Assembly (NCBI GenBank): GCA_029260345.1
Contig: JAJDDK010000005.1
Coordinates: 558,001-622,000 of the forward strand
DNA from: Phycisphaerales bacterium
Lineage (GTDB): Bacteria > Planctomycetota > Phycisphaerae > Phycisphaerales > UBA1924
Length of the DNA: 64,000 nt
Reading direction: 5' to 3'
Made by a program: the position numbers and the translations under genes. This document shows positions 21,932-29,033 of this stretch, piece after piece. The first letter of the stretch is position 1. The number at the start of each line of letters is the position of its first letter. Under the pieces are notes generated by a model. That model had not been told where the DNA came from and searched no databases. It saw only the letters and a list, made by a program, of their open reading frames with translations.

Positions 21932-22072
21932 TTTTTGAAATTGGACGATTGGTTGATCTTCAGCGATCTGGCCAAGTCCACAGATCCGCTTCCATTTTGT
22001 GCCGTATAGCCTATTGCGGCATGGCCGCAATGCGACCGATGGGCGGCGCGTGATGATGGATTGGCGGGGCAC

Positions 22073-24142
22073 ATGACGAATCGAGTCAAGGCATTGGGTT
22101 GGGCGCTCTCAGTGGCGGTGTTGTGCGCTCCGGCCGCGCTTGGTCAGTTATGCAAGCCGGCGTTGCTGGCGTCGTTCGGCGGGCCCGCCAGAGATGTCGC
22201 GATTGAAAACGATCTGGCGTGCGTGGCCGTGGGATGTGGCGGCTTGCTTGTGGCTGACGTGAGCGACCTCTCGATCACAAAGATCCTTGGCGCCATGGTG
22301 ACTCCGAATGATGCCATCGGCGTCGTCATGGCAGGCGCCTATGCATACGTGCTTGATGAGCATGCCTTGCACGCGGTTGACATCAGCGATCCAAGCAAAC
22401 CCTTCATAGTCGACTCCGCCTCGAGTTCCGATCCGTATCGGATCATACTCAAGGACAATTTTATTTATGTGGCTGACGGCGATGCCGGAATCAAACGCTT
22501 TGACATCAGTGATCCCTCGCGGCTTGAATTCAGAGGCGCGCTGAACACCAATGGAATTGCGATGGATGTTGACGTCGCTGAAAACGGCGCCATCTACATT
22601 TCAGACTTCAACAAAGGACTGAAAATTGCATATCCGGTGTCGCCCGACAGTCTTGCGCTGGTGACCACATTCCAGTATCCGTTCTCTGTCCGCGCCGTTT
22701 CGCTCATGGACGACTTCATTGTGGTCGCGTCATACTCGTCGATTCGAGTGCTTGACAAGAACTATCAGGAGATTGGCGTCGCTCCAACATTGAGATTGCT
22801 TCACGATGTCCTCGTGACTGGCGATTTCGCGCATTCGGTGAATTACAACGGGAATATCCAGACGTTTGACATCCGGAATCCCGCAGCGCCTCAGCTTGTG
22901 GAGTTGTCTGGCTCCGGCGAAGGCGCGCCTTTGAAAGAATTGGGTGAATTGGTTGTCACGGGCGGGGGGACAAAGGGAGTCGCGGTTTTCTCGGGCGGTG
23001 CGGAAGGCGATCTCAATTCGGCCGGCGGAATTGCGACTGCGTTTGGAGGCAATGTTCAATTCGACAAAGATCTGGCGTATGTCGGGGGCGCGGGACTCTC
23101 CACATTTCAGTTGAATGGCGAATCGCCCGTTGAGCTATTGGGGATGTACAGCGGAACCACGATCGGTGATCTCGTCATTTCGGGTGGCTATGTGTACACC
23201 ATCGGGCTCGGTGATAATTCCACTTTGCAGCTCGAAAGTTTTGATGTGTCGAACCCAGCGGCGCCGGCCAAAGTCGGCGCCCTGTTGCTTGGAGCCCCAT
23301 ACAGAGGCATCTCAATAAGCGATTCAACCGTTTATCTATGCGGCGGCCAATACAATCACGATCCGACTCCGTTGCTGATGATCGATGTCAGTGATCCGGC
23401 CAATCCAATGCCTATCGCTGCTGTGGATGTTGATGCAAATGCGGTGAGCATTGCGGATGGTTTGCTTTACGCCGCGGGCGACTTTGTGCTGACGGTTCTC
23501 GATCTAAGCGATCCCTTCAATGTCGAGATCGTTGGAGAGGTGGAACTTGCGGCACGAGCGACTGCGATCGACATCGCGAATGGGTTCGCCTACGTCTCTT
23601 CCTTTTGCAATTGTGCAGACGGGCCACATCCGTCGCTTGAAATCATTGATATCAGCGCGCCTACCAACCCGGTGTCAATTGCAAGTCTCGAAGTGGATAG
23701 CGGTCTCAAAATCCACGTTGAAGACGATATTGCGTATCTCGCCGGCGGGCTGGTCGAGTTCGTTGATGTTTCAGATCAAACGAACCCCTCAGTCGCGGCG
23801 ATGTTTTATCCGAGCGGCGGATCAGTCGACGTCGCGACTTTCGGCGACTTCATGTTTGTCAAGACCACGTGGGGGTTTGAGAAATACAGCCTCGCTCCTT
23901 GTCTGCATCCCGGTTGCACATCCGATTTCAATGACGATGGCGTGACGGATGGGACTGATCTTTCGATGTTGCTGCAAAGCTGGTATCTCGGTGGTGGGCT
24001 CCTGGCCGAACCGATCGCGCCGAACGGTGGACCAAACAATCTCTCGGGATATGCGGGGCCACAGATCGACCTGACGGACGACAATCTGGTGAATGGCGCA
24101 GACCTCGCGGTTCTGCTCGCCAATTGGGGTCCGTGCCGCTAG
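22073..24142 (+). CDS. Secreted LVIVD-repeat beta-propeller protein with C-terminal dockerin-like anchor
   Basis: A 689-residue exported protein. Signal peptide: MTNRVKALGWALSVAVLCAP ending ALGQ. It has many repeats of the LVIVD/propeller type (LLVADVSDLS, HAVDISDPSKP, KRFDISDPSRL, QTFDIRNPAAPQLVE, LEIIDISAPTNPVSIA), predicted to fold as one or two beta-propellers. The C-terminus carries two dockerin-like Ca loops: DFNDDGVTDGTDLSMLLQSW and DLTDDNLVNGADLAVLLANW. Start: the ATG at 22073 gives the signal peptide; a TTG 12 bases upstream is less likely. Ligand or enzyme role is not evident; probably a surface or extracellular protein. Confidence 0.82.
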   Translation: MTNRVKALGWALSVAVLCAPAALGQLCKPALLASFGGPARDVAIENDLACVAVGCGGLLVADVSDLSITKILGAMVTPNDAIGVVMAGAYAYVLDEHALHAVDISDPSKPFIVDSASSSDPYRIILKDNFIYVADGDAGIKRFDISDPSRLEFRGALNTNGIAMDVDVAENGAIYISDFNKGLKIAYPVSPDSLALVTTFQYPFSVRAVSLMDDFIVVASYSSIRVLDKNYQEIGVAPTLRLLHDVLVTGDFAHSVNYNGNIQTFDIRNPAAPQLVELSGSGEGAPLKELGELVVTGGGTKGVAVFSGGAEGDLNSAGGIATAFGGNVQFDKDLAYVGGAGLSTFQLNGESPVELLGMYSGTTIGDLVISGGYVYTIGLGDNSTLQLESFDVSNPAAPAKVGALLLGAPYRGISISDSTVYLCGGQYNHDPTPLLMIDVSDPANPMPIAAVDVDANAVSIADGLLYAAGDFVLTVLDLSDPFNVEIVGEVELAARATAIDIANGFAYVSSFCNCADGPHPSLEIIDISAPTNPVSIASLEVDSGLKIHVEDDIAYLAGGLVEFVDVSDQTNPSVAAMFYPSGGSVDVATFGDFMFVKTTWGFEKYSLAPCLHPGCTSDFNDDGVTDGTDLSMLLQSWYLGGGLLAEPIAPNGGPNNLSGYAGPQIDLTDDNLVNGADLAVLLANWGPCR

Positions 24143-24175: not shown

Positions 24176-24859
24176 TTACGGACACGCTCCCCACGTCGCC
24201 AGCAATTGCGCGAGGTCCGCACCGTTGACGACGCCGTCGCCGTTGAGATCGGCGCCGCAGGCGGCGAGGCCTGGTTCGGCCACCACCTGAATGAAAAACG
24301 GAAGGTCCGTGCCGTAGCTCCACGTCATGCCGGAGTCTTGCGAGTCGGCGTATTGCGCGATGACGCCCGTGCCGACGGAGTTGTTGCTGTTCGCATAGGA
24401 CCACCCAAGCGTGCCATCGCCAGGGGCTTCCGAGCCGAGCACGACCCAGTACGTCGTCGAAGGATCAAGCGTGACCGCGAGGACGGGCGTGAGCGTGCGT
24501 GCCGCGGGAGGGCCGGTGAAATCGGAGGTGGTCAGCGCAGTGATCAACACGCCGATCTGACCGGCGTTGTTCGAGCGCAACTCCGCAACGATGACGGGAT
24601 CCGCAGACGAATCGCCTCCGATGATGTCGATGCGCGTCAGCGCATAGGACATCGCGTCCGTCGTGAATGACTGGGCTGCCCATGACCACTCTGTCGCGCC
24701 GGACGGCGGCGATACGGGATTCGGGTTGTTGCCGATCTCCGTCGTCGCTCGGAACGGCTCCGCGAGGTTTGTGATCACGACGTCGGCCTGCAAAATGGAA
24801 TTGCACAATGCGAGAAGAGCGGACGCAACGATCGCGCGACTTGAAAGAGCCTTGATCAC
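24176..24859 (-). CDS. Secreted protein with C-terminal dockerin-like anchor
   Basis: A 227-residue exported protein. The GTG at 24859 is preceded by GAGG at 8-base spacing and gives a signal peptide (VIKALSSRAIVASALLALCN ... QADV). An ATG at 24946 would place the signal far inside the protein. The mature domain is a beta-rich sandwich (ITNLAEPFRATTEIGNN, SYALTRIDIIGGDSSAD, STTYWVVLGSEAPGDGTLGW), like the choice-of-anchor domains common in planctomycetes. The end holds one dockerin-like loop: DLNGDGVVNGADLAQLLATW. Function unknown. It is convergent with the LVIVD gene and divergent from the sigma-factor operon. Confidence 0.78.
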   Translation of the reverse strand: MIKALSSRAIVASALLALCNSILQADVVITNLAEPFRATTEIGNNPNPVSPPSGATEWSWAAQSFTTDAMSYALTRIDIIGGDSSADPVIVAELRSNNAGQIGVLITALTTSDFTGPPAARTLTPVLAVTLDPSTTYWVVLGSEAPGDGTLGWSYANSNNSVGTGVIAQYADSQDSGMTWSYGTDLPFFIQVVAEPGLAACGADLNGDGVVNGADLAQLLATWGACP

Positions 24860-25204
24860 GATGAGAACCTCGAGCAGCTTGACCGGTGCATTCTGGCGGC
24901 ATGTCGACCGGACACGCCCGTCGACGAACGCTGACGTGCCGACCATTGCACCGAATGGGAACGCCGGCTGTCGGCGGCGGTCCCGGGATTGACTCTAGCG
25001 ATGCGCCATGACGGACTCAACGGAATTCCGTCGGAGCTGGCCTGCGGGAACGGCCAACTCGGTGCTTGGGGCTCGATCGACTTCCGCGCGACCTCAGATT
25101 GCTTCATTGGCACCGACGCCATCACCAGTGCGGCAGTTTTCTCTGGAACACGCCCAACGGTCGTGCGTTCCACGAATCAGTTAGCGTGCCGTCCCGGGTT
25201 GACG
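24860..25204. other. Divergent intergenic region upstream of the sigma-factor operon
   Basis: A 345-base gap between a dockerin gene on the minus strand and the ECF sigma gene on the plus strand, with no supported coding sequence. It holds the candidate ECF promoter at 25145-25169. GTCCCGGGATTGAC near 24979 resembles GTCCCGGGTTGAC near 25191, a possible short direct repeat flanking the control region. Confidence 0.45.
25145..25169 (+). promoter_or_regulatory. Candidate ECF-sigma promoter
   Basis: GGAAC, exactly 16 bases, then CGTT: the consensus spacing of many ECF-type promoters. It lies 36 bases upstream of the sigma-factor ATG. ECF sigma factors often transcribe their own genes, so autoregulation is plausible. 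The assignment rests on one short match. Confidence 0.4.
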
Positions 25205-25768
25205 ATGACTGACGAATCTTCCGCGCACAATCCGGATGCGACTTCGCGCGACGCGGAACTGGTTCGTCGGGCGCGTCGCGGCGACGCCGAGGCGTTTGAA
25301 GCTCTTTACCGCGCGTATTCTCCGTGGGCGCTTCGTTTGGCGCGGCGGTTTGCGCCGGACGATGACGCCGCGCAAGACGTGGTGCAGGATGCGTTTCTGT
25401 ATCTGCTGGATCGCCTCCCGCGTCTCGAATTGCAGGGCAAATTGACCACGTTTCTCTATCCCGTCGTCAAACATCGCGCCCTCGATTTGAAACGAAAGCG
25501 TCGGCCGGATCTCTCGTTGAATCTCGATGCGGAGTCCTCGCCAAACACGCCTGCAACCCCGCAGGACAAGAACCCAGCGCTTCATTTGGCGGTCGAACGC
25601 CTCCCGGAGGCGCAGCGCGAAGTGCTGCTGATGCGATGTGTTGACGATATGAAACTGGCCGAAATCGCCGCGGCACTTTCCATTCCACTTGGCACCGCGA
25701 AGTCGCGTCTGCACCACGCCATTGAGGCTCTGCGGCAGGACGGCGCCATCCGCCGTGACCTCGAATAG
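25205..25768 (+). CDS. ECF-family RNA polymerase sigma factor
   Basis: A 187-residue sigma factor with region 2 (LVRRARRGDAEAFEALYRAY, then DDAAQDVVQDAFLYLLDRL) and region 4 (LPEAQREVLLMRCVDDMKLAEI ... IPLGTAKSRLHHAIEALR), the two-domain layout of ECF sigma factors that answer membrane or stress signals. The Shine-Dalgarno is weak. The three following genes run in the same direction: the first 66 bases downstream, the rest joined by 4-base overlaps. They are likely its signal-transduction partners. No canonical anti-sigma zinc motif is present downstream. Confidence 0.9.
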   Translation: MTDESSAHNPDATSRDAELVRRARRGDAEAFEALYRAYSPWALRLARRFAPDDDAAQDVVQDAFLYLLDRLPRLELQGKLTTFLYPVVKHRALDLKRKRRPDLSLNLDAESSPNTPATPQDKNPALHLAVERLPEAQREVLLMRCVDDMKLAEIAAALSIPLGTAKSRLHHAIEALRQDGAIRRDLE

Positions 25769-25834
25769 AAAAAATTTCGAAGTTCGATGAACCTTTTCGA
25801 GGGGCTGGGCGCTTCACAGGTGTGAAGGAGCCGC

Positions 25835-26305
25835 ATGTCCGATTTCCCTCGACAGGATGAATTAGGCGAGACGCCCGCCGGCCTTGGTGCGGAGCTCAAG
25901 GCGATGTTCGGCTCGGCGCCCGTTGTACGGGAGGATATTGACAACGCCGTTTTGTCCACGGCGCGGCGTCGGCTGGCCCATCGCCGGCGGGTGCGCCTGG
26001 CATGGCAGACCGTCACGTCCACTGCCGCAGCGGCAGCGCTGGCGATGCTCGTCTGGCTCGGACCGTGGCAATGGAATTCGGCGCCAGCGCCGAGCCCGCA
26101 CTCCGCGATGGCGATGGCGCATGATTTCAATCGCGATGGCGATCTGGACATCGTTGATGCGTTCGTGCTCGCGAGGCACATACGCGATGGCGAGACGCCG
26201 CTTGCGGAGTGGGATGTCAATCACGACGGCGCGGTGAACTCGGATGATGCTGATGCGATTGCGATGGCGGCGGTTTCGCTTTCGCCGCGGGAGGTGATTC
26301 AATGA
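25835..26305 (+). CDS. Membrane protein with extracytoplasmic dockerin (candidate anti-sigma partner)
   Basis: A 156-residue protein: an N-terminal ~50-residue charged cytosolic part, one membrane helix at about 57-80 (TVTSTAAAAALAMLVWLGPW), then an external dockerin with two Ca loops: DFNRDGDLDIVDAFVLARHI and DVNHDGAVNSDDADAIAMAA. This is a type I dockerin facing outward. The position directly after a sigma gene and the one-helix layout fit an anti-sigma factor, but no HxxxCxxC zinc motif or known anti-sigma fold can be seen. Its stop overlaps the next start (ATGA). Pairing of its dockerin with the cohesin-like neighbour is a hypothesis. Confidence 0.8.
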   Translation: MSDFPRQDELGETPAGLGAELKAMFGSAPVVREDIDNAVLSTARRRLAHRRRVRLAWQTVTSTAAAAALAMLVWLGPWQWNSAPAPSPHSAMAMAHDFNRDGDLDIVDAFVLARHIRDGETPLAEWDVNHDGAVNSDDADAIAMAAVSLSPREVIQ

Positions 26306-26778
26306 ATCGCGTTCTCGCTGCTGTCTTTGTGATTGTGTCGCTGAGCGCGACCATGGGATTGTCGAGTCGGCATCGTCCGGACGTCGCAAATGTTCCTGCT
26401 GAAGACCAGGCAGTGCGTTTCTCCGCGATCGATGTGTTTATCGACTCCGGCGCTGCCCCACTCGCGGCATATCAGTTTGAATTGAAATTGACCGGCGGCG
26501 CGAAGATTGTCGGTCTTGAAGGCGGTGAACACGGCGCGTTTGCAGAGGCGCCGTTCTACGACCCGGCCGCATTGATGCAGGATCGCGTCATCGTTGCGGA
26601 TTACAGCTTGGCGCCAGCGTCGGGCTTGCCGATGGGGCGCACGCGTGTCGCGCGCATTCACGTGCAACTTTCAAACATCGAGATGCCGCAGTTTGAGGCG
26701 GTCATCATCAAAGCGGCGTCCGCCGACGGCGGCGTCATCGACGTCAAGATTGTCGCAAACGAAGGAGCGCTTCCGTGA
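26302..26778 (+). CDS. Exported cohesin-like protein
   Basis: A 158-residue exported protein. Signal peptide: MNRVLAAVFVIVSLSATMG. The mature domain reads like a cohesin jelly-roll: IDVFIDSGAAPLAAYQFELKL (strand pair), IVGLEGGEHGAFAEAPFYD, RVIVADYSLAP and RVARIHVQLSNIEMPQFEAV, matching the order and spacing of cohesin strands. Cohesins bind dockerins with Ca2+. It overlaps the dockerin gene upstream (ATGA) and the VIT/vWA gene downstream (GTGA), so translation of all three is coupled. Assignment as cohesin-like rests on pattern similarity alone. Alternative: another small beta-sandwich of the same topology. Confidence 0.65.
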   Translation: MNRVLAAVFVIVSLSATMGLSSRHRPDVANVPAEDQAVRFSAIDVFIDSGAAPLAAYQFELKLTGGAKIVGLEGGEHGAFAEAPFYDPAALMQDRVIVADYSLAPASGLPMGRTRVARIHVQLSNIEMPQFEAVIIKAASADGGVIDVKIVANEGALP

Positions 26779-29033
26779 GCAGACGCTGGGCACTGGTGAT
26801 TCTCGCAGTTGTGTCTCTGGCAATCGTCGTCAGCGCAGTGATGACGGCGTGTGAAAGTGGGAGCGCATCACGCTCAATGTCAGATTCGGAGGTTGTCAGG
26901 GTCGAATCGACATTTGGCGTTGATGGACGCGCAACAGATGCTCAATTTGATGAATTGTGGATCATTTCGAGAGATGGAATTGAACCTGATCCGGATTTAA
27001 ATAACGACCGTTTCGATCTTGCTGGCGGCAATACGGAGGCATTCATCGGTGCTTCCCAAGCGAACGCGAGGTCCGATGGCAGCGTCCGACGCCAGCGAGG
27101 TACGTCGGATGGTCCCGAAGTAGCGTTTCAACGCGCTGAACTAAGCCGATCAGCGAGGCTGGGAGCCGCCCCCCTCGACGGGAGGGAATCTCCGGATCGC
27201 CTCCCCGTCCCCGGCGCGGGCGGCCTCATCACGCAAGGTAGAGACGGCACGGGTTTCGTTCACGTGCCGCTCGACCACACTGAGGTCGACGCGAACATTA
27301 ACGGTCACGTCGCCTCTGTGAACGTGCGCCAACGATTCCAGAATCCGTACGACACCAAAATCGAAGCGATCTATGTGTTTCCGCTTCCTGCGGATGCCGC
27401 AGTCAATGGCTTCCTGATGACGATTGGTGATCGGCGCATTCGCGGCATCATTCGAGAACGCGAAGAAGCCGAACGCATTTACAACGCGGCCCGCGCTCAA
27501 GGGCACGTCGCCTCGCTCCTGTCGCAGCAGCGTCCGAACATCTTCACACAGAAGGTCGCCAACATCGAGCCGGGCAAGCGGATCGACATAGACATCACGT
27601 ATTTCCATACGCTTTCGTACTCGGACGGCTGGTTTGAATGGGTGTTCCCGATGGTGGTCGGCCCGCGATTTAATCCGGTTGGCGCTCCCGACCCGGTGCT
27701 TGCTAATCCGCGCGGTCAGATGGCGCCGCAGGGGGCAACGGGGGTGACGTACATGCGTCCCGAGGAGCGGAGCGGCCATGACATCGGTGTCACGATAAAG
27801 ATCGAAGCGGGCGTTCCGATCGAAGAGCTCATCTGCCGCAGCCACGTCGTGGAGGTGAGCCGGTATTCCGAAACGAATGCGACAGTGGCGCTGAGCCCGC
27901 TCGACGCCATCCCCAACAAGGACTTCGTTCTTCGTTTCCGCGTTGCAGGCGATCAGGTTCGCTCTGGGTTTGTCACACAGCGCACGGATGCGGGAGGTTA
28001 CTTCTCGTTCATGTTAATTCCACCCCTCGATCTCGCGGCGACCCAGCGCGGTCCGATGGAGATGATCTTCGTGCTGGATTGCTCCGGCAGCATGAACGGC
28101 GAGCCGATCCGTCAGGCGAAATCCGCGGTCGAACGTGTGCTCAAACAACTGCGTCCGGAAGACAGTTTTCAGATTATTCGCTTTTCAAACAATGCGTTAG
28201 CGCTCGGCACAGCGCCTCTCGAGGCAAACCAGAACAACGTGCGTCGAGGTCTGAAGTACCTGGACTCTCTGAATGGCTCCGGCGGCACAATGATGATTGA
28301 AGGCATCAAAGCCGCGCTGGATTTTCCGCACGACCCACGTCGCCTTCGGTTCGTGTGTTTCCTGACGGACGGTTTCATCGGCAATGAGGCGGAGATCCTT
28401 AGCGCAATGGCGCCGCGATTGAAGGACTCACGTGTGTTCAGCGTCGGCATCGGCTCCTCGCCGAACCGACATTTGATCGCGCGAATGGCGGAGATCGGTC
28501 GAGGCGTCGCGGCCTACGTGGGCCCGCAGGATGATGCGGCCCAGATCATGGATCAATTCTTCTTGCGCGTCAGTCACGCATCGATGACCGATGTGCAGCT
28601 TGAATTTGATGGCGCCGCTGATGTCGAATATTTCCCGAGTCGTTCGTTTGATCTCTTCGTCGGCCGGCCCATCATGGTGACGGGGCGATTTGAGGGCGAG
28701 TCGCCACAACGCATTGTTGCTCGGGGGACAATCGCCGGTGAAGAGCGCATCGTGACGGCGTTCGCAACGGACGCGACGAACCGGACGGCGCTCGGGCCGA
28801 TCTGGGCGCGCACGAAGATTACAAGTCTTTCAAATCAAGCATTGGAAACGCGCGACGGAGATTTCAAAAATGAAATTCGCAATCTCGCGCTCGAGCACGG
28901 GCTTGTTTCGGCGTACACCTCGTTCATCGCGGTTGATTCGTTGTCGCGCACCGAGGGCGACCACGGTGTGACCGTCACCGTGCCCGTGCCGACGCCGCAG
29001 GGCGTGCGCTACGACACGACAGTTGGGAAGTGA
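26775..29033 (+). CDS. VIT domain and von Willebrand factor A domain protein
   Basis: A 752-residue exported protein. GTG start overlapping the upstream stop; signal MSRRWALVILAVVSLAIVVS with a possible lipobox at VMTAC. Residues ~40-160 are low complexity. A VIT domain spans ~162-295 (VDANINGHVASVNVRQRFQN, KIEAIYVFPLPADAAVNGF, ITYFHTLSYSDGWFEWVFPM). A vWA domain follows from ~425: the MIDAS DxSxS is FVLDCSGSMNGEPIRQAKS with D435, S437 and S439, plus GGTMMIEGIKAAL and FLTDGFIGNE. The layout resembles inter-alpha-trypsin inhibitor heavy chains and bacterial vWA/VIT proteins, which bind ligands through a metal site. Its role here is probably as surface binding partner or sensor; that is inference. 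Confidence 0.92.
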   Translation: MSRRWALVILAVVSLAIVVSAVMTACESGSASRSMSDSEVVRVESTFGVDGRATDAQFDELWIISRDGIEPDPDLNNDRFDLAGGNTEAFIGASQANARSDGSVRRQRGTSDGPEVAFQRAELSRSARLGAAPLDGRESPDRLPVPGAGGLITQGRDGTGFVHVPLDHTEVDANINGHVASVNVRQRFQNPYDTKIEAIYVFPLPADAAVNGFLMTIGDRRIRGIIREREEAERIYNAARAQGHVASLLSQQRPNIFTQKVANIEPGKRIDIDITYFHTLSYSDGWFEWVFPMVVGPRFNPVGAPDPVLANPRGQMAPQGATGVTYMRPEERSGHDIGVTIKIEAGVPIEELICRSHVVEVSRYSETNATVALSPLDAIPNKDFVLRFRVAGDQVRSGFVTQRTDAGGYFSFMLIPPLDLAATQRGPMEMIFVLDCSGSMNGEPIRQAKSAVERVLKQLRPEDSFQIIRFSNNALALGTAPLEANQNNVRRGLKYLDSLNGSGGTMMIEGIKAALDFPHDPRRLRFVCFLTDGFIGNEAEILSAMAPRLKDSRVFSVGIGSSPNRHLIARMAEIGRGVAAYVGPQDDAAQIMDQFFLRVSHASMTDVQLEFDGAADVEYFPSRSFDLFVGRPIMVTGRFEGESPQRIVARGTIAGEERIVTAFATDATNRTALGPIWARTKITSLSNQALETRDGDFKNEIRNLALEHGLVSAYTSFIAVDSLSRTEGDHGVTVTVPVPTPQGVRYDTTVGK

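Follow-up and report, generated by a model that had tools for sequence, protein, structure and literature searches.

A conserved Planctomycetota operon in which a cohesin–dockerin pair probably serves as the external clasp of an ECF sigma/anti-sigma switch

The locus and the recurrence of its gene order

The DNA analyzed here (the window) is a stretch of 64,000 nucleotides (nt) from the genome of a Phycisphaerales bacterium (contig JAJDDK010000005.1, positions 558,001 to 622,000). It carries four consecutive genes encoding an extracytoplasmic function (ECF) sigma factor, a membrane protein with a dockerin that very probably acts as its anti-sigma factor, an exported cohesin, and a protein with VIT and vWA domains. 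A previous sequence-only reading had proposed this layout, with a one-helix dockerin protein and an exported third product, and our computational analysis upheld its positions, domains, and ATGA/GTGA overlaps. To these we added a promoter-like element at 25788–25816, which was absent from that reading. The features, numbered from the first letter of the window, are as follows:

25205–25768, + strand: ECF sigma factor with regions 2 and 4 (Pfam/NCBIfam; conserved upstream position)
25788–25816, + strand: promoter-like element TGAACC-TTTT...-CGCTTCA, whose end is 19 nt upstream of the anti-sigma start codon
25835–26305, + strand: very probable membrane anti-sigma factor of 156 residues, with a type I dockerin on the outer side (PF00404, 1.1e-7; zf-HC2 homologues)
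26120–26260, + strand: dockerin domain with two Ca-binding loops and the helix 1 sequence DIVDAFVLAR (PF00404, PDB profile matches)
26302–26778, + strand: exported cohesin, 158 residues, with a signal peptide and a cohesin domain at residues 36–154 (AlphaFold and PDB fold matches)
26473–26475, + strand: codon for Gln58 of the cohesin, the sole invariant residue among 35 aligned family members
26775–29033, + strand: VIT/vWA protein, 752 residues, with VIT at 167–276, vWA at 429–579, and the metal site DCSGS (Pfam/NCBIfam)

The sigma protein matched Sigma70_r2 (PF04542, 1.2e-15) and Sigma70_r4_2 (PF08281, 3.5e-15) in Pfam. Regions 2 and 4 were the only ones present, as in ECF factors, and the protein scored 91.8 bits with TIGR02937 against a cut-off of 42.9. 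The last three genes are joined by 4-nt overlaps that can be read in the sequence, ATGA at 26302–26305 and GTGA at 26775–26778. In the fourth product, Pfam detected the VIT (2.1e-36) and VWA_3 (2.4e-17) domains. This protein resembles TIGR03788 and stays below the cut-off of that family (496.7 versus 551.65 bits); it is possibly a lipoprotein.

The sequence-only reading had suggested searching related genomes for the same gene order, and we found that the order is conserved across 147 loci. The total includes some genomes twice, and the counts of gene order use the loci with enough flank. Cohesin matches were present in 40 of 163 genomes of the bacterial family, the weakest few family matches proving unrelated, and in 35 of 392 genomes from a phylum-wide sample (31 of 267 genera). 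A scan of genome contigs added named metagenome-assembled genomes (MAGs) of Planctomycetota, including Phycisphaerae, Sedimentisphaerales, Fuerstiella, and others. It also added a few MAGs labeled Verrucomicrobia, Acidobacteria, Krumholzibacteriota, Deltaproteobacteria, and Fermentibacteria, some of which may be mis-binned. The dockerin gene lies upstream of the cohesin gene in 128 of 131 loci, with 4-nt coupling of the two in 80 of 129. The sigma gene is found upstream in 112 of 125 (98 on the same strand and 14 divergent), and a vWA gene follows downstream in 116 of 134. Such recurrence is far beyond chance.

The fourth place varies. In genus g29 and several others, the sigma, anti-sigma, and cohesin genes are kept with no VIT/vWA gene next door, and in distant members the place is taken by a YfbK-type vWA protein (L129:4439-6061) or a DUF4349 protein (L121:4471-5688). 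One further locus, L048, has the order dockerin–cohesin–sigma and no VIT/vWA gene; it is the only one seen with the sigma gene downstream.

A cohesin by fold and a probable anti-sigma factor

The third product had been called cohesin-like by eye, and sequence searches were blind to this likeness. The 158-residue protein had no match in Pfam or NCBIfam, the Pfam cohesin model PF00963 had no match at an E-value of 1 anywhere in its own genome, and a profile of 35 family sequences found no cohesin among PDB sequences. The profile of a distant clade of the family reached the cohesin-like modules of NagJ weakly (E-value 0.26). The fold upheld the call. An AlphaFold model built from 35 natural family members showed a block with predicted local distance difference test (pLDDT) values of 91–99 across residues 41–150. 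The top Foldseek matches of this model were cohesins (E-value about 1e-3). In a structural alignment to the PDB, ranks 1–47 were all cohesins, the best being 5nrm_A (Z 10.6, 2.8 Å, 115 residues), while the first non-cohesin fold followed at Z 7.5. A second family member from elsewhere in the phylum (L100) again gave a cohesin fold (Z 9.8). As judged from these models, the 158-residue protein is a cohesin by fold that lies outside the PF00963 sequence family.

Gln58 is the only invariant column in the 35 aligned members. In a low-probability hhalign alignment its counterpart is Asp37 of the CipA fragment, which is Asp39 in the 1OHZ numbering of CipA cohesin-2, and the distant clade aligns in the same register. 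Four residues of the cohesin, Asp39 among them, are described as contacts of the dockerin Ser/Thr motif (PMC5772552). In the distant clade the cohesin is itself a lipoprotein with an invariant lipobox Cys.

The dockerin protein consists of a cytoplasmic domain (residues ~1–54), a membrane helix (~55–73), and the dockerin (96–142). The latter is of type I, scoring 32.4 bits with PF00404 (Dockerin_1, 1.1e-7) against a cut-off of 22.9; its profile matched dockerins in the PDB (best 1.5e-7), and it has two complete Ca-loop motifs, DFNRDGDLDIVD and DVNHDGAVNSDD. The net charge is +6 before the helix and 0 after it, and the N-terminal side is the more positive in 134 of 139 dockerin proteins, which places the dockerin outside.

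The cytoplasmic part of the window protein matched the anti-sigma model NF052375 weakly (7e-4). Its homologues were more informative. In L119 and L124, zf-HC2 (1.7e-9 and 6.8e-5) and Dockerin_1 (7.2e-9 and 2.9e-9) occur in a single protein, all above cut-off, with the cohesin gene next. In L204, which is otherwise like the window protein, an Hx3Cx2C motif is present and the NF052375 score improves to 2.6e-8. This motif was found in 12 of 139 dockerin proteins and is missing from that of the window; anti-sigma groups that mix zinc and non-zinc forms exist (PMC7406223). The adjacent sigma gene (112 of 125), the positive-inside helix, and the zf-HC2 homologues make up the anatomy of a class I membrane anti-sigma factor. 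Because zf-HC2 and dockerin occur together in distant homologues, an anti-sigma role for the dockerin protein is very probable, and the protein is predicted to bind the sigma factor encoded upstream. These homologues back the partnership that the sequence-only reading had assigned to it.

In 10 loci, anti-sigma domain, helix, dockerin, and cohesin follow one another in one chain. A tree of sigma and cohesin sequences divides these fusions into three groups, and both single cases stand beside an unfused neighbor; the placement of L100 is weakly supported. Three independent gene fusions, as far as the tree can tell, back a working dockerin–cohesin unit. The helix 1 pattern of the dockerin is kept even where the Ca ligands are gone. 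In genus g29 (L057–L062 and L064), for example, the dockerin portion of the fusion lacks Ca ligands in both repeats and retains this pattern. We considered that the Ca loops might decay once the cohesin is fused, which proved not to be general, as fusions L055 and L100 retain their loops.

The genome of the window holds at least 104 dockerin matches. Among the 30 best, most dockerins other than that of the operon carry NG[SAT]DLAxLL in place of DIVDAFVLAR, which suggests that the operon dockerin and its cohesin may form a private pair. Many of the genome's dockerins sit at the C-terminus as tags that read NG[SAT]DLAxLLxxWG, and some of these finish with Cys-Pro (e.g., WGACP). Such tags adjoin LVIVD-repeat and choice-of-anchor R proteins, in the window at 22061–24142 (+) and 24176–24946 (−), and they are possibly sorting tags and not docking modules.

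A promoter-like element before the anti-sigma gene

The gap that separates the sigma stop codon from the anti-sigma start codon contains a motif, TGAACC(TTT)…CTTMA. In the window it consists of a −35-like TGAACC and a −10-like CTTCA, with 19 nt separating TGAAC and CTTCA. Among 122 distinct upstream regions, TGAAC-N19-CTnnA was present at exactly this spacing in 66, as compared to 0.07 in shuffles. The same spacing is found in E. coli sigma-E promoters. When 16–20 nt were allowed, the motif was found before the anti-sigma gene in 71 of 122 cases, before the sigma gene in 6 of 107, and on the reverse strand in 0. After removal of redundancy it was present before the anti-sigma gene in 38 of 79 loci; the loci, 707 kb in total, held 50 matches, including these 38. 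The element is retained where the sigma gene is divergent and in most fusions. T makes up 56–65% at the three positions after TGAACC, in line with ECF promoters, in which an AAC triad is followed by a T-tract (PMC6056542).

The copy at 25788–25816 is the only perfect one in its own genome. We also considered a wider regulon and rejected it; sites with one mismatch in the same genome were no commoner than those of a reversed-pattern control, and none stood directly before a clear gene start. Elsewhere, among loci L247, L255, L250, and L256, the element is likewise found in front of a second VIT/vWA gene (genome G033) and a gene for a DUF4139-like protein (G010). In G095 it lies upstream of a gene for a coiled-coil protein with two transmembrane segments, as it does, 129 nt off, for a similar gene in G033; the strict element preceded such homologues in 0 of the other 29 loci checked. 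The simplest reading is that the sigma factor of the window, which would recognize TGAAC-N19-CTTMA, drives the anti-sigma, cohesin, and vWA genes in a self-contained loop whose regulon is very small.

Models of control and comparison with known systems

We consider it likely that the operon encodes a self-regulating switch, in which an ECF sigma factor and a membrane anti-sigma factor carry a cohesin–dockerin clasp as their external module. The dockerin protein would hold the sigma factor at the inner membrane through its N-terminal domain, while outside the co-encoded, exported cohesin would bind the dockerin of the same protein. The state of this clasp would decide whether the anti-sigma factor keeps or frees sigma. 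The cohesin would most likely be a co-inhibitor or a sensor subunit, in the way that RseB serves RseA, and release or rearrangement of the cohesin would free sigma. Free sigma would then read the TGAAC-N19-CTTMA promoter, and the anti-sigma factor, the cohesin, and the VIT/vWA protein would rise together. Such a loop would feed back on itself, with the VIT/vWA envelope protein as its main output. It is equally probable, in our judgment, that the two modules are a private pair throughout the phylum, used for signaling and not for enzyme assembly. The direction of control and the nature of the signal we infer, and we favor the cohesin as a restraint because it and the anti-sigma factor come from the same promoter.

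Several points weigh against this switch. The binding of dockerin to cohesin and the promoter preference of the sigma factor are both inferred. Both Ca loops, strictly defined, are kept in only 82 of 139 dockerin proteins and in none from genus g29. The register that places Gln58 at the contact site hangs on a low-probability alignment. The AlphaFold model of the natural fusion L100 gave a predicted template modeling (pTM) score of 0.66, a value that fits docking and its absence alike; its input was restricted to fused and cohesin rows because MAFFT left the unfused dockerin and cohesin rows unaligned to the fusion. Last, the strict promoter element is missing in about half of the loci, and its matches outside the operon are scattered and not conserved.

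The closest alternative reverses the sign of control. The dockerin would be free and the anti-sigma factor active at rest, and the arriving cohesin, or a cohesin–vWA complex, would trigger release or proteolysis of the anti-sigma factor. This has the same anatomy as the favored switch, and the lipoprotein cohesin of the distant clade could report from another membrane. However, the promoter-like element shared by cohesin and anti-sigma factor fits feedback inhibition, and the cohesin is permanently present in the fusions, so that we regard an activating cohesin as possible and clearly less likely than a restraining one. Less likely again is that the VIT/vWA protein is the regulator, sensing the state of the envelope via its metal site, with the cohesin and dockerin merely tethering it to the anti-sigma factor. 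The vWA gene downstream in 116 of 134 loci and the YfbK-type vWA protein that takes its place in L129 would fit this view, whereas g29 and several other lineages keep sigma, anti-sigma, and cohesin genes with no adjoining VIT/vWA gene. The sequence-only reading had considered the vWA protein as a sensor partner; its absence or replacement where sigma, dockerin, and cohesin persist makes it better seen as the output of the promoter-like element. We think it improbable that, beside a real anti-sigma factor, the dockerin docks on another, larger scaffold or is a structural tag, with the cohesin presenting VIT/vWA or other dockerin proteins at the surface in a small cellulosome-like assembly as in the "planctosome." One cohesin could indeed serve many partners in a genome so rich in dockerins, and a cohesin/dockerin planctosome is proposed for Nemodlikiaceae (PMC6461901). 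Against this reading, most other dockerins seen differ in the helix 1 signature, three lineages have the cohesin fused to the dockerin of the anti-sigma factor, and in loci that lack the VIT/vWA gene the cohesin gene still neighbors the anti-sigma gene.

The sequence-only reading knew of no described system of this make-up. Our literature search, which covered few subscription journals, likewise found no paper, apart from the work on sigma-I, that links dockerins with ECF sigma factors and anti-sigma factors. To our knowledge, and as far as the literature was searched, this is a real and conserved operon that is undescribed, with cohesin and dockerin probably in a new role within ECF sigma/anti-sigma signaling. 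Few protein pairs bind as tightly as cohesin and dockerin, and engineers make wide use of them, yet they are known almost only from cellulosomes. Here, a genome rich in dockerins and without a Pfam-visible cohesin holds a cohesin beyond the reach of Pfam together with a dockerin that is probably dedicated to it. In a phylum whose signaling is poorly known, the defined operon, promoter, and single residues offer a way to study the gating of a sigma factor by an extracellular clasp.

Clostridial anti-sigma factors had been cited as a precedent for ECF control; those systems are in fact sigma-I/RsgI, and sigma-I differs from ECF factors in lacking a sigma4 domain (PMC6056542). RsgI senses polysaccharides via carbohydrate-binding modules, and the targets of sigma-I include cellulosome and cellulase genes (PMC6056542, PMC12484212). 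What the two have in common is an anti-sigma factor in the membrane whose sensory module lies outside, in organisms that use cohesins and dockerins. Unlike sigma-I/RsgI, the present operon has an ECF sigma factor with region 4, and a dockerin with a putatively dedicated cohesin instead of carbohydrate-binding modules. With the type I pairs of cellulosomes (CipA, 1OHZ) it shares the two folds, the Ca-loop dockerin, and a conserved residue that aligns with the Asp39 contact site; it differs in that its one cohesin accompanies a sigma/anti-sigma pair, scaffoldin repeats and a glycosidase are missing, and the cohesin sequence goes unrecognized by Pfam. The planctosome, a proposed peptidase complex, is likewise a non-cellulosomal use of cohesin and dockerin in Planctomycetota, and the accessible text of its description mentions no sigma or anti-sigma factor (PMC6461901).

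The fourth gene has a close relative in the VIT/vWA marine proteobacterial sortase target of TIGR03788, below whose cut-off it scores. A close parallel in overall design is the sigma-E system of E. coli. There, an ECF sigma factor is paired with the one-helix membrane anti-sigma factor RseA, exported RseB is encoded next door and binds the outer part of RseA, and the operon is driven by a promoter of the GGAACTT/TCTRA type. The operon described here has the same components, with a neighboring gene for an exported partner whose binding is predicted, and a similar type of promoter. In contrast to the sigma-E system, where RseA lacks a dockerin and its partner RseB is no cohesin, the present operon adds a VIT/vWA protein and has its promoter-like element before the anti-sigma gene and not before the sigma gene.

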